A DNA stretch of 64,000 nucleotides from Candidatus Nitrosotalea okcheonensis (GTDB taxonomy: Archaea; Thermoproteota; Nitrososphaeria; Nitrososphaerales; Nitrosopumilaceae): positions 1,797,559-1,861,558 of the forward strand of contig NZ_LT841358.1 in assembly GCF_900177045.1 (NCBI RefSeq), read 5' to 3'. The position numbers and the translations under genes were made by a program. The notes under the pieces are model-generated. The model made no database searches. It saw only the letters and a program-made list of their open reading frames with translations, and had not been told where the DNA came from. The stretch's first letter is position 1, and every line of letters starts with the position of its first letter. Positions 52,415 to 62,361 of the stretch are shown one piece after another.

Positions 52415-52717
52415 ATGATGCTTACTCCTAAAGATTTTGATAAATTGTATATTTTTATGATTGCAGAGCTTGCAAGAAAAAGAATGGCAAAGGGATTGAA
52501 ACTGAATTATCCGGAAGCAATTGCTATAATATCTGATCACATTGTTGAAGGAGCAAGAGAAGGAAAATCTGTTTCTCAACTTATGCAGTCTGGCAGAAAG
52601 GTCTTGTCAAATATGGATGTTCTACCAGGAGTAAGTGATATGATAAAATCAGTTCAAGTAGAGGCAACGTTTGAAGATGGAACAAAACTTGTGACGGTAC
52701 ATGATCCTATAGTGTGA
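52415..52717 (+). CDS. ureA: Urease subunit gamma
   Basis: 100 residues of Ure[52 protein letters not shown] is the family core, and the end [18 protein letters not shown] is normal. It forms the structural urease with UreB and UreC. A second ATG directly follows the first. The stop overlaps the ureB GTG (GTGA). Confidence 0.96.
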
Positions 52718-53085
52718 TTGTAATGAAACCCGGAGAATATCTCATTTCTAAAGAACCAATAATTGCTAATGTGGGAAGGAAAATTGTTAATCTTAAGGTA
52801 AGCAATACTGGAGACCGTCCAATTCAGGTAGGATCACATACTCACTTTTTTGAAGTAAACAAATTTCTTTTATTTCAAAGAGAAAAAGCCTATGGTTTTC
52901 ATCTTAACGTCCCATCTGGATTGTCTGTTAGATTCGAACCAGGTGAGACAAAGGTGGTAGAACTGGTCGAGTATGGGGGCAAGAAGATTGTTTACGGTTT
53001 TAATGGTCTTGTCAACGGAGAGTTGCAGAAAAATAAAACAATGTCTTTAGAAAAAGCAAAATTAAAAGGATTCAAAGGAGCCTAG
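52714..53085 (+). CDS. ureB: Urease subunit beta
   Basis: 123 residues. [50 protein letters not shown] is diagnostic of UreB, as is [17 protein letters not shown]. Separate UreA and UreB genes show the bacterial-like three-subunit urease. GTG start overlapping ureA; ureC begins at the next base after the stop. Confidence 0.96.
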
Positions 53086-54798
53086 ATGCCTCTTACAATT
53101 CCAAGAAAACAATATGTTGATTTGTATGGTCCTACAGTTGGCGACAAAGTAAGACTTGGGGACACTGATCTGATTGTTGAGATTGAAAAAGATCTGATAA
53201 TCTATGGGGATGAAATAGTCTTTGGTGGAGGAAAAAGTGTACGTGATGGAATGGGACAAGCAAGTGGAGTAACTAGAAAAGATTCAGTTGATCTTGTAAT
53301 TACAAACGCGATAATAATGGATCCAATTTTAGGCATAATCAAAGCTGACATTGGGATTAAGGACGGACGTATTGCTGCAATAGGAAAAGCCGGAAACCCA
53401 AACATAATGGACGGGATAAATATGATAATTTCCTCGGGTACCGAAATTATTGCAGGAGAACATACAATTTGTACTCCCGGTGCTATAGATACACACATTC
53501 ATTTTATTTCCCCACAACAGGCGATCGAAGCAATTTGTAGTGGCACAACTACAATGATAGGGGGAGGAACAGGACCTGCAGATGGTACAAATGCTACTAC
53601 TTGTACCCCTGGGCCTTGGAATCTGGGAATGATGTTGCAGGCTATAGAAGATCTTCCATTAAACTTTGGCTTTCTTGGAAAAGGAAATGATGCTCTGGAG
53701 CCTGCATTAATGGAACAAATCGAATCTGGAGCATGTGGGTTAAAGTTACATGAAGACTGGGGGTCTACTCCAGCTACTATAGATTCGGCATTAAAGGTGG
53801 CGGATAAGACTGATACCCAAGTTGCAATACATTCGGATACGCTAAACGAATGTGGCTTTGTTGATGATACCATTGAAGCAATTTCTGGGAGAACGATTCA
53901 TACATATCATACAGAGGGTGCAGGAGGAGGTCATGCCCCAGACATAATGAAAATTGCCTCAGAGAAAAATATACTTCCATCATCAACTAATCCGACCAGA
54001 CCATTTACTGTAAATACAATTGAAGAGCATCTAGATATGATGATGGTATGTCATCATCTAAACCCATCAATTCCGGAAGATGTTGCATTTGCTGAATCAA
54101 GGATAAGAAGTGAAACGATTGCAGCAGAAGATGTACTTCACGATATTGGAGCATTGAGTATGTTTTCCTCAGACTCACAAGCAATGGGTAGGGTAGGAGA
54201 AGTTACAACAAGATTGTGGCAAACTGCAGATAAAATGAAAAAAATGGTAGGCAGACTGAAAGAAGAAAGTGGAGACAATGATAATTTTAGAGTAAAGCGA
54301 TATCTCTCAAAACTCACAATAAATCCCGCAATAACACACGGAATTTCTGATCATGTGGGTTCATTACAAAATGGCAAAATTGCCGATATTGTAATATGGA
54401 CACCAGCCTTTTTTGGAATAAAACCAAAAATGATCATCAAAGGTGGGTTTATAGCATATTCCTTAATGGGCGATCCAAACGCATCAATTCCAACACCAGA
54501 GCCAGTTTACTATCGTCCTATGTTTGGTGCACTTGGAAGAGCCAAGTACGCAACTTCATTTACTTTTACATCGCAATTAGCTATGCAAAATAAAATATCT
54601 GAAAAGTTGAATTTGCAAAAAAAATTATTGCCAGTTGGGAGATGCCGAAAAATAAGTAAAAAAGACATGCTGTATAATGATCTCACTCCCAAAATTGAGA
54701 TAGATCCAGAGACGTATGTAGTTAAAGTAAACGGAAAATTGGCAACAACACAAGCCTCTGAAAAGGTCCCACTTGCAAGGCTGTACAACCTATTTTAG
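53086..54798 (+). CDS. ureC: Urease subunit alpha (catalytic)
   Basis: 570 residues with an intact nickel site: His137 and His139 (DTHIHF), the carbamylated Lys220 (GLKLHEDWG), His249, His275 ([16 protein letters not shown]) and Asp363 ([10 protein letters not shown]). The mobile flap holds Cys322 and His323 (MVCHHLNPS). It hydrolyses urea to ammonia and carbamate. Every catalytic residue is present, so the enzyme should be active once matured by UreDEFG. Confidence 0.98.
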
Positions 54799-54934: not shown

Positions 54935-55822
54935 GTGGAATTTTTAGACACAAGCGTTGTCGAGAAAATAGACCTTAAAATGATTCGACCTTCAAAATTT
55001 TTAGTTCGTGGTGAATTTGACCAAAAAAGACCAGAAATAGAGTCTTTGGCAAGGAGCATAAGAGAGCATGGCCTATTGCAACCTATACTGATACGGCCGC
55101 TAGATCATGGATTTGAGGTTGTAGCAGGTCACAGAAGATTGCAAGCTTGCAGACATCTTAGAAGTAGGTTTATCTCCTGTACGATACGTGAAATTTCCGA
55201 TAAACAAGCATACGAAATCCAACTCATAGAAAATCTGCAGAGACAATCTATGTCTCCGTTAGAAGAAGCAGAGGCTTTTAGAAAATATGTAGATGAATTT
55301 GGATGGGGTGGTGTAACAGAACTCTCAAAGAAAATTGGAAAAAGTATTGAATATGTATCACATAGGATGCAATTACTAAAACTACCGGAAAATGTAAAAA
55401 TAGAACTTGTTCAAAACAAAATAAGCACAAGTCATGCAATAGAACTCTCTACGCTTGATTTTGATGATCAAGTAGGAGTCATAAAAGAAGTAATACGAGA
55501 TAATCTCACAATCAAAGAAATCCGTCAACTAAAATCAAACATTCGTTCACACCCAAAAGAGAATGATTCATCATATCTCAACTCTGTAAATAAACGAGAT
55601 ATGCCTCCTCCTTCAATAAAGTTGGCACAAAAAATATCTATTACATTTAAAATAACTCTTGCTAGGGTTGATCAAATAATATCTGAGGTCGATAAGATAC
55701 AAGATATTGAAAACAAGGAAAGAACAAAAGAACTTTTGATGGATATGCGATTGCGTATACACTCCATGATTGATGAAATCATTCATTTTAAAAAATCCGA
55801 ATTAAATTATAAAATTAAATAA
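54935..55822 (+). CDS. ParB/Spo0J-like DNA-binding protein
   Basis: 295 residues. The ParB N-terminal CTPase-type domain is recognisable: SIREHGLLQPILIRPL, VVAGHRRLQACRHL (GERR-type box with His for Glu) and LIENLQRQSMSPLEEAEAF. A KorB-like HTH follows (GVTELSKKIGKSIEYVSHRMQLLKLPENV). The C-terminal 90 residues are helical and lineage-specific. No parA is nearby, so chromosome partition, nucleoid organisation or gene regulation are all possible. GTG start. Confidence 0.85.
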   Translation: MEFLDTSVVEKIDLKMIRPSKFLVRGEFDQKRPEIESLARSIREHGLLQPILIRPLDHGFEVVAGHRRLQACRHLRSRFISCTIREISDKQAYEIQLIENLQRQSMSPLEEAEAFRKYVDEFGWGGVTELSKKIGKSIEYVSHRMQLLKLPENVKIELVQNKISTSHAIELSTLDFDDQVGVIKEVIRDNLTIKEIRQLKSNIRSHPKENDSSYLNSVNKRDMPPPSIKLAQKISITFKITLARVDQIISEVDKIQDIENKERTKELLMDMRLRIHSMIDEIIHFKKSELNYKIK

Positions 55823-55823
55823 A

Positions 55824-56417
55824 TTATTTTCCAAGAAAAGGTGGAATCCATTCATCAAGAAATTTCTTATATTCTCTTTTTGTATGTGTTAGGGCTTGGT
55901 GGGAAGGCTCCTTCATTGGAACGAAATCGTATATTTCATATGATTGGATTATGTCTCCAAACAAATTACGATATATGTCGCTTTCATCATCTGCCATCTC
56001 TTCATTGAAAAAGCTCTGTATGGTAATCCAATCATATCCTCCTCTTGTTTTTCCAGAAAAAATCACAAATGGTGCATCTGCCAAATATTTTCTCAAACCT
56101 TCTAGTCTCTTTGGTAGATGTTGTGAGGTTCTAAAAGTAACAAGTGATACTCGTATAGTACGTCGAGGTATTTTTTTAAGATCCACTGATATTGTATACC
56201 CTGTAATTACACCTGAATCTTCAAGATTGGTAATTCTTGATTCTATCTCTGACTCGGTTAAATTATAACCACTATCCATCAAATTTTCCAATATTTCTCT
56301 AGTGTCATTTTTGGCGTTTTTACTCAGAGAAGAAAGTATCACTTCATCTATGGTGTCAATCAACAGGTGGATTATCACTAATCTATCAGTTATAGGTTTT
56401 GCAAAGATATTGTCCAT
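55824..56417 (-). CDS. Lrp/AsnC-like transcriptional regulator beside urea transporter
   Basis: 197 residues. A winged-helix region (about 20-75: ILSSLSKNAKNDTREILENLMDSGYNLTESEIESRITNLEDSGVITGYTISVD) is followed by a RAM-like domain (RTIRVSLVTFRTSQHL... FVIFSGKTRGGYDWITIQSFF) and a helical tail. It is longer than standard Lrp. It is divergent from the SSS-USP transporter with only 86 bases between, and a perfect palindrome sits right before its start, so control of itself and the transporter is likely. Confidence 0.75.
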   Translation of the reverse strand: MDNIFAKPITDRLVIIHLLIDTIDEVILSSLSKNAKNDTREILENLMDSGYNLTESEIESRITNLEDSGVITGYTISVDLKKIPRRTIRVSLVTFRTSQHLPKRLEGLRKYLADAPFVIFSGKTRGGYDWITIQSFFNEEMADDESDIYRNLFGDIIQSYEIYDFVPMKEPSHQALTHTKREYKKFLDEWIPPFLGK

Positions 56418-56419
56418 TT

Positions 56420-56438
56420 AATATTTTTCAAAAATATT
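56420..56438. promoter_or_regulatory. Perfect 19-bp palindrome, candidate Lrp operator
   Basis: AATATTTTT-C-AAAAATATT starts three bases upstream of the regulator's ATG. The left arm plus CA (AATATTTTTCA) recurs at 56461-56471, touching the transporter's TATA box. The position suits autoregulation and control of the transporter. Confidence 0.55.
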
Positions 56439-56470
56439 CAACAAGCAGACTAATTTTTACAATATTTTTC

Positions 56471-56482
56471 ATAGATAAATAC
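56471..56482 (+). promoter_or_regulatory. TATA box of the SSS-USP transporter
   Basis: ATAGATAAATAC about 22-33 nt before the ATG at 56504. It directly adjoins a repeat of the candidate operator half-site. Confidence 0.5.
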
Positions 56483-56503
56483 TTGGACAAACCTAACTAT
56501 CCA

Positions 56504-58840
56504 ATGAATTCCATTCTTTCTGAGAATGTAGGGTATGTAATTCTTCTTGGATTTGGTTCGATGATGGCTATTCTAGTCACTCTGATAGTCAAGATTGAAA
56601 CAAGATGGAATAAGATAAGAAAAACATTCGAATGGTTCAACACTGCGGGTAGAAGTGTAAAGACTGGAATTTTGGCATCATCCGTAGTGTCTGCATGGAC
56701 CTGGGCTGCTACTTTTCTTCAATCATCTAGTGTAACATATCAATATGGCCTAGGTGGTTCCTATTGGTATGCAGCAGGTGCAAGCATACAGATTGTTCTT
56801 TTTGCCATTCTTGCAATCGAATTAAAAAGAAAATCTGCTACAGCGCATACGTTTACAGAAATTATAAACGCCAGATTTGGCTCAACTGCTCACAAGATAT
56901 TTCTCTTTTTTGGATTTTTGACAAATAGCATAATTACTGCAATGCTTGTAATTGGAGGTGCGGCGGTTTTAAATTCATTAACAGGTATCAACATATACGC
57001 TGCAGCTTTTCTGATACCTGTAGGGGTTGTCATCTATACATTTTTTGGAGGTCTTAGGGCAACTTTTATTGCAGAATATTTTAACTCAACCCTAATTTTC
57101 ATTGTTATCTTGATTTTTGTTACAACTGTATATTTCGTCAATGGCAATATAGGGGGTATTTCTGGAATGTATGAAAAGATAGTCCATTCAGCAGTAATCA
57201 AACCTGTTGCTGAAAATAGTGGAGGTTCCTACCTCACACTTGCCTCATCAGGAGCACTACTCTTTGGAATAATAAACATTGTAGGAAACTTTGGAACAGT
57301 ATTTGTGAACCAATCCTACTATCAACGAGCTATTGCTGCTAGACCAAAGTCTGCTGTGAAGGGCTTTCTTATTGGTGGTTTAGCGTGGTTTTCTATTCCG
57401 TTTACTCTTGCAACAACACTCGGTCTTGCAGCAATAGCTATGGGAATGACGTTTTCTGCAGATCAGATAAGCATGGGTTTGATAGCCCCATCTGTAGCAT
57501 CGAGTCTGCTTGGTAATATTGGCGCAATTTTACTTTTGACAATAATATTTACTGCGGTAACATCTGCAGGCTCTGCCGAATTGACTGCAGTCTCCTCGCT
57601 TTTTACCTATGATGTATATCGGACTTATCTAAATCCGTCTGCAAGCGGCAGACAACTTGTAAAAATTTCTAGAATGGTGATTCTATTTTTTGGTTGTGGA
57701 ATGGGATTGTTGGGAATATCGATCATACAATTTGGGGTTAGCCTACAATTTGTCTATCTTACAATGGGAATAATCATAGGTTCAGCAGTCATACCTATCG
57801 CCTTAACTCTAACTTGGAAAAAGACTAACAAAATTGCTGCATCGTCAGGTGCAATAATTGGATTGTTTCTAGGAGTCAGTATGTGGTTATATTCAGCATA
57901 TGTCTTATTTGGACAAGTATCTCTATCTTCAACTTCCCAAAACATACCACTGCTTTTAGGAAATGTTATTTCAATATCCTCTGGAGGGCTGATTGTTTTT
58001 CTTGGGAGTCTAATTAACCCATCTAATTTCAATTTCAAGATTATGAAACAAAAAATTATAGTAGTCGATGAGCGAATACGGGCTATAATTGAACGTGACA
58101 ATGATGAGAATTTTCTAAAAAATGCTGCCAAATTTACCTATAGGTACAGTATTGTTCTTTCAATCGTATTGATTGTAGTTATTCCGATCCCACTTTATGT
58201 TTCAGGATATGTCTTTTCTGAAATGTCATATAGAATATGGATAATAGCTGGTATAGTCTGGGTTTCTGTTTCTACAGTAGTTATAATAGGTATGCCTATT
58301 TTTGAGGCAAAAAGTTTTGTAAAAAGAATCATTCTTTCTATTTCAAATAGATTTCTTTATGAAACCAGGTATTTTGATGAACAAAATAATAAAAAATCAG
58401 ACAACAAACATTCTGGTGATTTAACAAATCTGGATGAATATAAAAAAATTCTTGTGGCAGTTGATGGATCAAGCATGTCAATTAGAGCCCTGCGTTATGT
58501 AGAAAATTATTTTGGGAATCTCAACTCGAAAATTTTCATTGTGTATGTAATCGAGTGGGAAGAAACTGACGAGATTTTGGATTCTGTCATCATGAATAAA
58601 ATGGAGATAGAGGGAAAGCAGATGTTGCGTGGTATACTTTTGGCCAAACATGAAGACAAGTATCAAAGATTTGTCAAAGTTGGAGATCCTGCATCTAAAA
58701 TACATGAAATTGCCGAAAAAACAGAAACCGACATAATAGTAATGGGTCTCAAAGGACTTGGAAATACATACCATGAGATGGGACATGTGGGTCAAAAGGT
58801 CTTAAATCTGACGTCAAAACCTGTGCTCTTTCTAAAATAA
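56504..58840 (+). CDS. Sodium:solute symporter (DUR3-like urea transporter) fused to a USP domain
   Basis: About 778 residues. The first ~560 form an SSS transporter with 13-15 helices: FNTAGRSVKTGILASSVVSAWTWAATFLQSSS is the substrate-path region, close to DUR3 proteins. After two extra helices and a charged linker, residues about 646-778 are a universal-stress (UspA) domain (KKILVAVDGSSMSIRALRYV... DIIVMGLKGLGNTYHEMGHVGQKVL). Its nucleotide motif G-x2-G-x8-G-H deviates from the usual G-x2-G-x9-G-S/T. Proximity to urease supports urea as substrate. ATG 56504 was chosen; the longer frame is unsupported. Confidence 0.88.
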   Translation: MNSILSENVGYVILLGFGSMMAILVTLIVKIETRWNKIRKTFEWFNTAGRSVKTGILASSVVSAWTWAATFLQSSSVTYQYGLGGSYWYAAGASIQIVLFAILAIELKRKSATAHTFTEIINARFGSTAHKIFLFFGFLTNSIITAMLVIGGAAVLNSLTGINIYAAAFLIPVGVVIYTFFGGLRATFIAEYFNSTLIFIVILIFVTTVYFVNGNIGGISGMYEKIVHSAVIKPVAENSGGSYLTLASSGALLFGIINIVGNFGTVFVNQSYYQRAIAARPKSAVKGFLIGGLAWFSIPFTLATTLGLAAIAMGMTFSADQISMGLIAPSVASSLLGNIGAILLLTIIFTAVTSAGSAELTAVSSLFTYDVYRTYLNPSASGRQLVKISRMVILFFGCGMGLLGISIIQFGVSLQFVYLTMGIIIGSAVIPIALTLTWKKTNKIAASSGAIIGLFLGVSMWLYSAYVLFGQVSLSSTSQNIPLLLGNVISISSGGLIVFLGSLINPSNFNFKIMKQKIIVVDERIRAIIERDNDENFLKNAAKFTYRYSIVLSIVLIVVIPIPLYVSGYVFSEMSYRIWIIAGIVWVSVSTVVIIGMPIFEAKSFVKRIILSISNRFLYETRYFDEQNNKKSDNKHSGDLTNLDEYKKILVAVDGSSMSIRALRYVENYFGNLNSKIFIVYVIEWEETDEILDSVIMNKMEIEGKQMLRGILLAKHEDKYQRFVKVGDPASKIHEIAEKTETDIIVMGLKGLGNTYHEMGHVGQKVLNLTSKPVLFLK

Positions 58841-58866
58841 TTCTGCCGATGTCGACAAAAAACTTG
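58653..58866 (+). repeat. Direct repeat, left copy (USP tail and 3' flank)
   Basis: The last ~62 codons of the SSS-USP gene and about 26 bases beyond recur at 59670-59879 with only a handful of substitutions and one 4-base deletion. The two copies bracket the PII gene. Confidence 0.93.
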
Positions 58867-59073: not shown

Positions 59074-59403
59074 GTGAAGAGAATTGATGCCATAATTCCC
59101 GAAAAAAATCTGCATGTTGTGAATATCGCATTAAAACACGCTGGCATTACTGGTATGACAATCTTTAACACAAAGGGTCGTGGTGAACTTACACCGGAAC
59201 CAATGCAGTTAGGTGGACCTGCTGGATTCTTTATTCCTACATTCACTGAAACTTTCACCATTATGATTCTAGCAAAAGACAGTGATGTTGAGAGTATAAT
59301 TAAATCTCTAATAGAAAGTGCAAGTGCAGGAAAGATAATTGTTACCAATGTGGAGATTTTAATAGATATTCACAAAAATAAAAAAAATGAGGAAGCGCTT
59401 TAG
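59074..59403 (+). CDS. Non-canonical PII signalling protein (GlnB/GlnK family)
   Basis: 109 residues with PII family framework: MKRIDAIIPEKNLHVVNIALKHAGITGMTIFNTKGRGE, then beta strands and the closing EEAL. The T-loop (ELTPEPMQLGGPAGFFIPTF) lacks the Tyr uridylylated in bacteria and is Pro/Gly-rich. The B-loop is shortened: SAGKIIVTNVE instead of TGxxGDGKIFV. Nucleotide/2-oxoglutarate binding may therefore differ. It lies between two urea-type transporters and not beside an ammonium transporter, the usual PII partner. Confidence 0.85.
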   Translation: MKRIDAIIPEKNLHVVNIALKHAGITGMTIFNTKGRGELTPEPMQLGGPAGFFIPTFTETFTIMILAKDSDVESIIKSLIESASAGKIIVTNVEILIDIHKNKKNEEAL

Positions 59404-59951
59404 CCGACCTCTTTTATATATTAAAGCCTAATTGAAACGTTATTTTCATTATGGTTTCATGATCAAACAATTTTTGATAACTCACATATCGTCAAAGTAA
59501 ATAAAAAATTACTGGCAATCAAATTTCTGAATAATTCTTCTTACAAGATTATACTGCTCATTTTACATTCATCTTTAATCATTATAATTTTAAAATCTAT
59601 TCGAGAATTGAAAAAATAATTTCACAATTGAATTTTCTATGTATTATAAAATTATAAAAATAAAATGATAAGACAAGTATCAAAGATTTGTCAAAGTTGG
59701 AGATCCTGCATCCAAAATACATGAAATTGCCGAAAAAACAGAAGCCGACATAATAGTAATGGGTCTCAAAGGACTTGGAAATACATACCGTGAGATGGGA
59801 CATGTGGGTCAAAAGGTCCTAAATCTGACGTCAAAACCGGTACTCTAAAATAATTCTGCCGATGTCGACAAAAAACTTGGTCACAATGACTGTCTTAATA
59901 AATAAATTAAAATCTTGAAAATCATATGAAATACTTGACTAATACCAATTC
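59404..59951. other. AT-rich intergenic region containing the USP-tail copy
   Basis: The first ~265 bases are strongly AT-rich and hold no recognised gene. 59670-59879 is the right direct-repeat copy, and the remaining ~70 bases lead to the second transporter, with AT-rich stretches (ttaataaataaatt near 59894) but no well-spaced TATA box. Confidence 0.6.
59670..59879 (+). pseudogene. Truncated USP-domain fragment (right copy of direct repeat)
   Basis: In the original frame this reads DKYQRFVKVGDPASKIHEIAEKTEADIIVMGLKGLGNTYREMGHVGQKVLNLTSKPVL and then stops early because of a 4-base deletion. A stop codon lies directly upstream and there is no start, so it is not a gene. It is a recent copy of the SSS-USP 3' end, with the same 3' flank, placed about 70 bases before the second transporter. 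Confidence 0.9.
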
Positions 59952-61874
59952 GTGGCAGGTTTAATCGAATCCACTGTGTTGCCAGAACAAGTTGGATGGA
60001 TTATAGTGCTGGGGTTTGGTCTATTCTTCGCAGTACTTGTTTCTTTTCTGATAAAAGCAGAAAAAAAATATCTGGGAGAGAAAATCACATCTGAATTTTT
60101 TGCCACTGCTGGAAGAACAATAAAGACAGGTCTGACAGCTGCTGCAATTGTATCGGCATGGACTTGGGCTGCTACACTACTCCAGTCATCTTCAGTAGCA
60201 TACAAGTTTGGCATCAGTGGACCTTTTTGGTATGCGTCTGGTGCAACTATTCAAGTATTACTTTTTGCAATGCTTGCAATAGAAACCAAGCGAAAGGCTC
60301 CTCATGCCCATACCTTCTTGGAAATAATTAGAGCGAGATATGGTAATGGTGGTCACAAAGTCTTTCTTACTTTTGCCTTGATGACAAACATGATAGTAAC
60401 TGCAATGTTACTTCTTGGTGGTGCAGCTGTGATTAACGGACTCACTGGTATGGACATTTCACTGGCAGCATTTCTAATTCCTATAGGAGTGATAATATAC
60501 ACTCTGGCAGGTGGTTTACGTGCTACTTTTATTGCAGATTATCTTCATACTACAATTATCTTTATTGTACTTCTGATCTTTGTAACTACTGTATACTTTA
60601 CCAGCGGCATGACCGGAGGAGTTCCCGGAATGTATGACAAACTCACAGCTGCTGCACATTTACATCCGGTTGACGGTAATGCAGCTGGAGCCTATCTAAC
60701 AATGGTTTCACTTGGTGGATTAATCTTTGGAATAATCAACATAGTCGGTAACTTTGGTACTGTCTTTGTGGATCAAGCCTATTGGCAAAGAGCTATTGCA
60801 GCAAAGCCAAGCTCTGCTGTAAAAGGATATTTACTTGGAGGAATGGCCTGGTTTGCAATTCCATTTACCCTTGCAACAACACTTGGGTTGGCTGCTGTTG
60901 CTATGAATGTAGATCTTACACCTCAACAAGTAAATCTTGGTTTGGTTGCTCCCTCTGCAGCAGCTGCCTTGCTTGGGCCAGCAGGTGCTATACTGATCTT
61001 GACTATGTTATTCATGGCAGTAACATCTGCAGGTTCAGGAGAACTTGTAGCTGTCTCATCTTTGATTACATATGATATCTATAGAACTTACAAAAATCCG
61101 GAGGCTACGGGAAAACAATTACTCAGGGTTTCACACTGGACAATCGGAATATTTGGCGTAGGCATGGGTGCATTAGCTATCATATTATTAAAAGCTGGCT
61201 TGAGCTTAGGATATGTCTATTTGGCAATGGGTGTGATAATTGGATCCGCAGTGGTACCTATTGCATTAACAATTTTGTGGAAAAAGACAAACAAGAATGC
61301 TGCTATCGCAGGTGCCATAATAGGTCTATTTGCTGGATTGATTGCGTGGTTTGGAACTGCAATGTTCATGTATGGTAATATTTCGCTTGATAGTACTGGC
61401 AAAGATTTTCCAATGTTATTTGGAAACATCGCTGCAATACTAGTTGGTGGATTTATTGTATGGATTGGAAGTGTAGTAACGCCTGCAAACTTTGACTGGA
61501 AGAGAATGCGGGAAGAAATCACACTTGTAGATGAAAGGGAGGTACAATATACTGATCCAAAGGATACAGATCCAGTAATCCTTGAAAAAGCATCCAAGTT
61601 TAGTGTGAAGTCTGGAATCGCACTCACACTTATTCTAGTTGTTGGTTGGCCTATGCCGATGTATTTTTCTGGTTATGTCTTTGATTTGGGATTCTATGAG
61701 TTTTGGGTGGGAATTGCAGTTGTATGGGCAGCATTTGCTTCAGGATCTATAATCTTACTTCCGATAATAGAAGGAAGAGGAGGTATTACTAGAGTACTTC
61801 TAGGTATGGCAGGAAAAACAAATGTAAAAATTATAGATGAAAGAAAAAGGGGGGAACAATCTGATGATGTGTAA
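59952..61874 (+). CDS. Sodium:solute symporter (DUR3-like urea transporter), no USP domain
   Basis: 640 residues with 13-15 helices. It is strongly similar to the first transporter along its whole membrane part: FFATAGRTIKTGLTAAAIVSAWTWAATLLQSSS and IFGIINIVGNFGTVFVDQAYWQRAIAA. It stops after a short hydrophilic tail (DERKRGEQSDDV) with no USP domain. Probably a Na+- or H+-driven urea importer, by family and context. GTG start. The following zinc-ribbon gene overlaps its end by 11 bases. Confidence 0.9.
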   Translation: MAGLIESTVLPEQVGWIIVLGFGLFFAVLVSFLIKAEKKYLGEKITSEFFATAGRTIKTGLTAAAIVSAWTWAATLLQSSSVAYKFGISGPFWYASGATIQVLLFAMLAIETKRKAPHAHTFLEIIRARYGNGGHKVFLTFALMTNMIVTAMLLLGGAAVINGLTGMDISLAAFLIPIGVIIYTLAGGLRATFIADYLHTTIIFIVLLIFVTTVYFTSGMTGGVPGMYDKLTAAAHLHPVDGNAAGAYLTMVSLGGLIFGIINIVGNFGTVFVDQAYWQRAIAAKPSSAVKGYLLGGMAWFAIPFTLATTLGLAAVAMNVDLTPQQVNLGLVAPSAAAALLGPAGAILILTMLFMAVTSAGSGELVAVSSLITYDIYRTYKNPEATGKQLLRVSHWTIGIFGVGMGALAIILLKAGLSLGYVYLAMGVIIGSAVVPIALTILWKKTNKNAAIAGAIIGLFAGLIAWFGTAMFMYGNISLDSTGKDFPMLFGNIAAILVGGFIVWIGSVVTPANFDWKRMREEITLVDEREVQYTDPKDTDPVILEKASKFSVKSGIALTLILVVGWPMPMYFSGYVFDLGFYEFWVGIAVVWAAFASGSIILLPIIEGRGGITRVLLGMAGKTNVKIIDERKRGEQSDDV

Positions 61875-62361
61875 TGGTTGTGGAATACAACTTGGATTTA
61901 CAAAATACAAGTTTCGAGGAATGTGGAGAATTCAAGGTCTTTTTTGTAAATCTTGTATGAAAAAGATTGGTGAAAATATTGACAAATCACATACTGGAAC
62001 CACTAATTTAGAAAAACAACAATGTACTCTATGCAAAAGTGAATTTTATTTTCTTCAATCCAAGGTACAAGGAGAAAAATTCTGCAAGTTTTGTTATGAC
62101 GTGGTTGCTAATGATAAATCAATTTCTAATTCCAATTCTTCCATGACCCAAAAATTGCCCAAAGTAAACATGATCTGGGGCATTTTTGGATTGGCTTTAA
62201 TGCTAGCAGGCTTGGTATTTACCTTTGTAAACACGTCACAAGCGGGTGGTAATCTACTTAGTATCATTTTTGGTTCAATGACAACTGCTACTGGATTTAT
62301 TGTTTTTAGAAAGACACTGTATTCACGGAGAGTGCTTTATGGAAAAAAAATACATGCATAA
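61864..62361 (+). CDS. Zinc-ribbon membrane protein of unknown function
   Basis: About 165 residues. Two CxxC pairs form one ribbon (CNGCGIQ...CKSC), and a second ribbon follows (CTLCKS...CKFC). Two membrane helices near the C-terminus (IWGIFGLALMLAGLVFTFV; LLSIIFGSMTTATGFIVF) precede a basic end. A purine-rich AAAGGGGGGAA lies upstream of the ATG. Overlap with the transporter suggests coupled expression; an accessory role for it is conceivable. Not a known family to me. Confidence 0.65.
   Translation: MMCNGCGIQLGFTKYKFRGMWRIQGLFCKSCMKKIGENIDKSHTGTTNLEKQQCTLCKSEFYFLQSKVQGEKFCKFCYDVVANDKSISNSNSSMTQKLPKVNMIWGIFGLALMLAGLVFTFVNTSQAGGNLLSIIFGSMTTATGFIVFRKTLYSRRVLYGKKIHA

Follow-up and report, generated by a model that had tools for sequence, protein, structure and literature searches.

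An archaeal DUR3-type urea transporter with a C-terminal universal-stress domain: architecture, kin and candidate roles of the tail

Why should an ammonia-oxidizing archaeon (AOA) carry a urea-type symporter of the SSS family that ends in a universal-stress (USP) domain, next to a paralog without one, and what might such a domain do? The question arises from a window of 64,000 nucleotides (the whole stretch of DNA analysed here; G+C 37%) in the 1.97-Mb, single-contig genome of an AOA, which we assigned to a Nitrosopumilaceae-like family (f1) by its kinship with named records. The gene and its two domains are as follows.

56504..58840, + strand: DUR3-USP, SSS-family urea symporter with a C-terminal universal-stress domain, 778 aa (Pfam domains, full-length orthologs)
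56636..57862, + strand: SSF (sodium:solute symporter) Pfam domain, residues 45-453 (E 2.6e-24)
58439..58834, + strand: USP domain, residues 646-777 (Pfam Usp, E 1.1e-18)

The initial annotation had read this gene as an SSS symporter with a USP domain fused to its C-terminus, and that reading stands. Positions 56504-58840 (+) hold a single uninterrupted frame of 778 codons, in which SSF and Usp both lie above the curated Pfam cut-offs against which they were judged (68.5 bits against a cut-off of 24 for Usp). The AF2 model of the USP domain (pLDDT 81) confirmed a five-stranded alpha/beta fold of the Usp type, with TeaD and MJ0577 as its best fold matches (1mjh and 3hgm were matched); the full-length model is of moderate confidence (pLDDT 66) and does not fix the contact between USP domain and transporter. 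Chance fusion and assembly error were both rejected because the fusion recurs across genomes: it is found at full length, in two families and free of internal stops, in 20 of the 201 sampled genomes of the order (five in f1 and 15 in f8, the latter being Nitrososphaeraceae by named matches). Dozens of named AOA records carry it as well, including those of Nitrosopelagicus, Nitrosopumilus, Nitrosarchaeum, Cenarchaeum, Nitrososphaera and Nitrosocosmicus. We regard the orthology and the architecture given here as virtually beyond doubt.

Genes for urease lie upstream in the same window.

52415..54798, + strand: ureABC, urease gamma, beta and alpha subunits (Pfam)

A true urease is encoded in all 20 genomes with DUR3-USP, so that the fusion, which the annotation had proposed to seek in other ammonia oxidizers, is both present there and anything but absent from their urease-bearing members. 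Urease also occurs without DUR3 in several genomes, including one (G200) of the window's own genus. A plasmid search returned only distant SSS proteins and SulP/USP neighbours. Two AOA DUR3 contigs (L103 and L116) are filed under bacterial metagenome-assembled genomes ('bacterium Ust_3' and the Pelagibacteraceae NORP275), probably through binning contamination.

The substrate assignment rests on several lines of comparison. DUR3 homology covers residues 3-613, and plant DUR3 proteins are the closest solved relatives (E 3.5e-181, phmmer against the PDB), with sugar, iodide and choline symporters far behind; six plant DUR3 chains also took ranks 1-6 in a Foldseek search with the full-length model (E 2.4e-30). 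The urea pocket of Aspergillus UreA has been assigned to W82, W84, N279 and T282 by mutagenesis and to Y289 by docking (PMC9783183), positions which correspond to W65, W67, N262, T265 and Y272 of DUR3-USP. Among representatives at 90% identity (26 USP-fused, 17 plain and two fused to a histidine kinase, HK), the first three residues are invariant in all 26 USP-fused and 17 plain copies, and T265 and Y272 are found in nearly all of these, the remainder having Ser and Phe. The case for urea as the predicted substrate is strong, as the annotation's "urea-type" label implied, because plant DUR3 is closest by both sequence and fold and the pocket residues are kept. The window protein thus resembles the DUR3 urea symporters of plants and fungi (SSS family TC 2.A.21) in residues 3-613, pocket and fold, but plant DUR3 sequences match the transporter part only, after which DUR3-USP adds its USP domain.

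The paralog without a USP domain that had been noted nearby is indeed there, across a 1.1-kb gap.

59952..61874, + strand: unfused DUR3 paralog, plain clade (SSF only by Pfam; tree)

The two genes had also been offered as a natural pair of regulated and unregulated transporters. One member does lack the domain, but they make no clean with/without-domain pair, since they belong to two old clades, are 55% identical and have different neighbours. In a maximum-likelihood tree of 103 transporter parts (tails excluded; a quick run under a simple model), archaeal DUR3 splits into two clades. All 48 rows of the plain clade end without a tail domain, and the tailed clade (clade B, support 100) holds 46 copies with USP, four with HK, one with a broken HK and three cut by contig ends. 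The three cut copies (L100, L102 and L110), considered as domain-less exceptions, all stop at the contig end, and the seemingly different tail of L028 is really that of a DUR3-HK with broken reading frames, its HK-like frame lying downstream. That locus (L028 635-3541, from the Nitrosocosmicus-like genome G149) comprises three overlapping frames, which reflect either a pseudogene or assembly frameshifts. On the sequences compared, tail presence is a clade trait without true exception, every complete clade B copy being tailed, and the fused and plain clades would have parted before the families within clade B diverged.

Plain DUR3 accompanies DUR3-USP in all five f1 fusion genomes and occurs without it in three more of that family; in f8 a plain copy beside the fusion was seen in one genome (G089), most Nitrososphaeraceae having fused DUR3 only. 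Two plain copies from Nitrososphaeraceae (L031 and L077) nest within those of Nitrosopumilaceae, a placement that makes lateral transfer of plain DUR3 into Nitrososphaeraceae possible.

Between the two transporters of the window lie a further gene and a gene fragment.

59074..59403, + strand: P-II-like gene between the two transporters (Pfam P-II, 1e-13)
59670..59879, + strand: broken copy of the DUR3-USP 3' end, 210 bp, 95% identical to its source at 58653-58866

The P-II-like gene was considered as part of the system and set aside because its linkage is confined to this window, the gene being absent from the other cassettes, one weak match aside. Viewed by eye, the T-loop region of its product is unusual and the B-loop seems shortened; the protein may be a divergent P-II that does not bind ATP as others do. 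The broken 3' duplicate, which was also matched, with stops, when genomes were searched for the fusion, is evidence of recent rearrangement around this gene. Together with its source it forms direct repeats flanking the P-II-like gene, which homologous recombination could delete.

The surroundings of the two clades differ more consistently, and the relevant features of the window are these.

54935..55822, + strand: ParB-like gene, outer neighbour of the Lrp/DUR3-USP cassette (ParB_N and HTH_ParB)
55824..56417, - strand: Lrp/AsnC-like regulator, divergent from DUR3-USP (weak NCBIfam Lrp matches, weak HTH_24 below cut-off)
56418..56503, no strand: 86-bp divergent intergenic region, candidate shared control region (sequence)
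61837..62361, + strand: zinc-ribbon-like membrane protein following the unfused DUR3 (context)

The cassette is ordered ParB-like (+), Lrp-like (-), DUR3-USP (+). The Lrp-like gene is divergent and <600 bp away in 39 of the 45 DUR3-USP copies whose flanking sequence is long enough; the remaining six have it on the same locus, with an insertion between the genes, a slight overlap or a rearrangement. It neighbours none of 44 plain copies. A zinc-ribbon plus membrane-helix protein follows 46 of the 48 plain DUR3 copies and not a single DUR3-USP; the representative at 61837-62361 matched no Pfam family above cut-off. These neighbourhood counts are inflated by near-identical genomes and include some genomes that entered by two routes. 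The ParB-like gene adjoins fused DUR3 in both its USP and HK forms. We infer that the Lrp-like gene would control DUR3-USP expression from the shared divergent promoter. No convincing shared operator motif was seen by eye in the intergenic region, and a recurring string near the Lrp start, considered as an operator, is coding sequence.

The HK forms bear directly on what the tail may do. HisKA and HATPase were not found by Pfam in the window protein, and were found in orthologs (L023 and L027). HK copies of the Nitrosocaldaceae (L021-L023) lie at the base of clade B, and the long-branched L027 lies beside L028, in the same quick tree. Two Nitrosocaldaceae loci have DUR3-HK followed by a convergent response regulator (L039 10003-10539, Pfam Response_reg 4.7e-12; L074 8783-9316, judged homologous by eye), beyond which lies the ParB-like gene. 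No Lrp-like neighbour accompanies the HK form, and one accompanies the USP form in nearly all copies. A DUR3-HK of the Nitrosopumilaceae family (L040 6352-9096, genome G009) lies away from urease with no Lrp or response regulator nearby; its branch is long and it is possibly repurposed. The Nitrosocaldus DUR3-HK has the architecture of the SLC5/STAC histidine kinases (CbrA, CrbS), an SSS transporter with a C-terminal HK, whereas in most AOA the tail is a USP domain, not an HK, and the neighbouring gene is Lrp-like, not a response regulator. An SSS-kinase of Nitrosocaldus cavascurensis figures in the list of a review (PMC7918813), in which the entry carries no apparent tie to DUR3-USP.

These arrangements invite a reading of clade B DUR3 as a transceptor, which would both carry and sense urea and pass the signal outward via its tail, by a phosphorelay from HK to response regulator in Nitrosocaldaceae and elsewhere by protein contact of the USP domain, perhaps with the Lrp-like regulator. 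HisKA and HATPase occur within the one clade in Nitrosocaldaceae and G009, with a response regulator adjacent in the two Nitrosocaldaceae loci, and tail and neighbouring regulator change together; USP domains, however, are not established as output domains. All five sampled genomes of the Nitrosopumilaceae family that bear the USP fusion also retain a plain DUR3 to take up urea in bulk, but most Nitrososphaeraceae have fused DUR3 alone, which must then transport unless a UT-type channel suffices. Known SLC5 kinases include CbrA (PMC7096432, PMC13022988), whose transporter part modulates its kinase (PMC7096432). We regard outward signalling as doubtful, if far from negligible. Equally tentative is the notion of an AOA urea transceptor family, a DUR3 clade specialised for urea sensing in which tail and regulator are swapped jointly (HK and response regulator in Nitrosocaldaceae against USP and Lrp in most other AOA) and plain DUR3 serves bulk uptake where present.

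What the USP domain might bind is constrained by its loop.

58745..58786, + strand: shortened nucleotide loop, G748-x2-G751-x8-G760-H761 (loop comparison with standalone USPs)

The altered nucleotide loop reported in the annotation is borne out, and its shortening is common to all fused USPs. In the window it reads G748-LK-G751-LGNTYHEM-G760-H, or G-2X-G-8X-G-H against the usual G-2X-G-9X-G-(S/T). We compared the fused domains with 45 standalone USPs from AOA and related genomes and with MJ0577. Spacing between the second and third glycines is 7-8 residues in fused and 9-10 in standalone USPs, a split that holds after removal of redundancy at 90% (30/30 fused against 42/42 standalone). The loop ends in His in 31 of 42 fused USPs and in Ser in all 45 standalone ones; among non-redundant fused copies, Ser takes this last position in 4/31 and Thr in 0/31. 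The strand-1 Asp that serves adenine is kept in 42/42 fused USPs, and both first loop glycines in nearly all. Fused USPs form a single clade against the 45 standalone AOA USPs (support 99), which points to a single fusion and to a loop change that arose once and was inherited.

Where a USP binds ATP, ribose is contacted by the first Gly, and the beta and gamma phosphates are held by the later Gly and the Ser/Thr; the USP domain of KdpD is without the triphosphate-loop motif, does not prefer ATP and binds c-di-AMP (PMC8214093). Gating of uptake by ATP or energy charge, as first proposed for this gene, draws on membership of the USP family and on ATP-binding MJ0577 being among the best sequence and fold relatives. 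The G-2X-G-9X-G-(S/T) motif of the ATP-binding subfamily (MJ0577/UspFG type) is, however, found in no fused copy, mean net loop charge is -0.95 in fused against +1.6 in standalone USPs, and no fused USP has a beta/gamma-phosphate loop of full length, a loss that recalls the KdpD USP domain; the proposal was not borne out, and we consider such gating very unlikely. With the ribose and adenine residues kept and the triphosphate part lost, a mononucleotide-type ligand, or none, is predicted. Being a conserved trait, the altered loop speaks against ATP as the molecule sensed; a mononucleotide ligand or contact with a protein fits it better. That the ligand is not ATP is quite probable, although the retained D654, G748, G751 and G760 could still permit weak ATP binding.

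Gating by c-di-AMP, as in KimA or KdpD, would fit the shared plan of a membrane transporter with a C-terminal USP-like domain, and the loop loss resembles that of the KdpD USP domain (PMC8214093). Yet no diadenylate cyclase (DAC domain) was found in the window's own genome or in any of 22 genomes with fused DUR3, and 11 of 14 control genomes score in the same search, which makes this ligand exceedingly improbable. The window's own genome does encode class III cyclase homologs, which make cAMP a fair candidate; CYTH-type cyclases were looked for and not found. The USP domain could also be a structural or dimerization module without ligand, given a triphosphate loop degraded in all fused copies and plant DUR3 structures described as dimeric in their titles. 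USPs commonly dimerize. The adenine Asp and the first loop glycines, conserved in nearly all copies, would nevertheless be needless for a purely structural role, which we hold to be improbable.

The explanation we favour, at slightly better than an even chance, is that the protein imports urea as a DUR3-type transporter, carries a regulatory USP domain on the cytoplasmic side and, derived from one fusion in AOA, represents one of two DUR3 types. The USP domain would adjust transport or dimer state allosterically through helix 603-630; it would not read ATP via its phosphates, and would either bind an adenine mononucleotide (AMP, ADP or cAMP) or act as a docking or dimer module. A regulatory rather than inert tail is likely. 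Whether it acts inward or outward is a closer call, and an effect on uptake seems only somewhat better supported than a signal sent outward, by analogy with KimA, a KUP-family transporter that likewise joins a membrane part to a C-terminal USP-like regulatory domain; there the nucleotide c-di-AMP binds the cytosolic domain and inhibits, and the transporter is trapped in an inward-occluded state (PMC10284832). KimA was among the matches of the full-length model in the fold search; DUR3, however, belongs to a different transporter family, and no c-di-AMP cyclase was found in these archaea. TeaD, the top fold match of the window's USP domain, is similarly tied to a solute importer, the TRAP transporter TeaABC, but as a separate protein where the window's domain is fused. 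Against modulation of uptake, HK-fused orthologs hold an output domain at the same place, which favours signalling over gating.

The components of this system are known. In the open-access literature searched (subscription papers lying outside its scope), we found no description of USP-fused DUR3, its loop, its linkage or its exchange with kinase tails, all of which are apparently undescribed. The AOA dur3 'Copy 1' and 'Copy 2' of an earlier study (PMC10753782) are the same two genes; judging from its text, its two clusters are probably our plain and fused clades, and the tail domain goes unmentioned. Marine copy 2 is attributed there to lateral transfer out of soil AOA; the tail domains and gene cassettes suggest instead that the dur3 copies are two old orthologous types.

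Urea is a main alternative source of nitrogen and energy in marine and soil AOA, and the dominant marine genera are set apart by its use (PMC12686405). In surveys, dur3 has been treated as a single gene (PMC12686405) or divided into copies 1 and 2 with no tail distinguished (PMC10753782). Under either reading, gating or signalling, the fused DUR3 would be the regulated or regulating form and the plain DUR3 the bulk importer. The tail-bearing copy type offers a gene-level handle on the control of urea use in AOA and alters how dur3 counts are to be read, and a DUR3 clade in which kinase and USP tails are exchanged provides a testable case.
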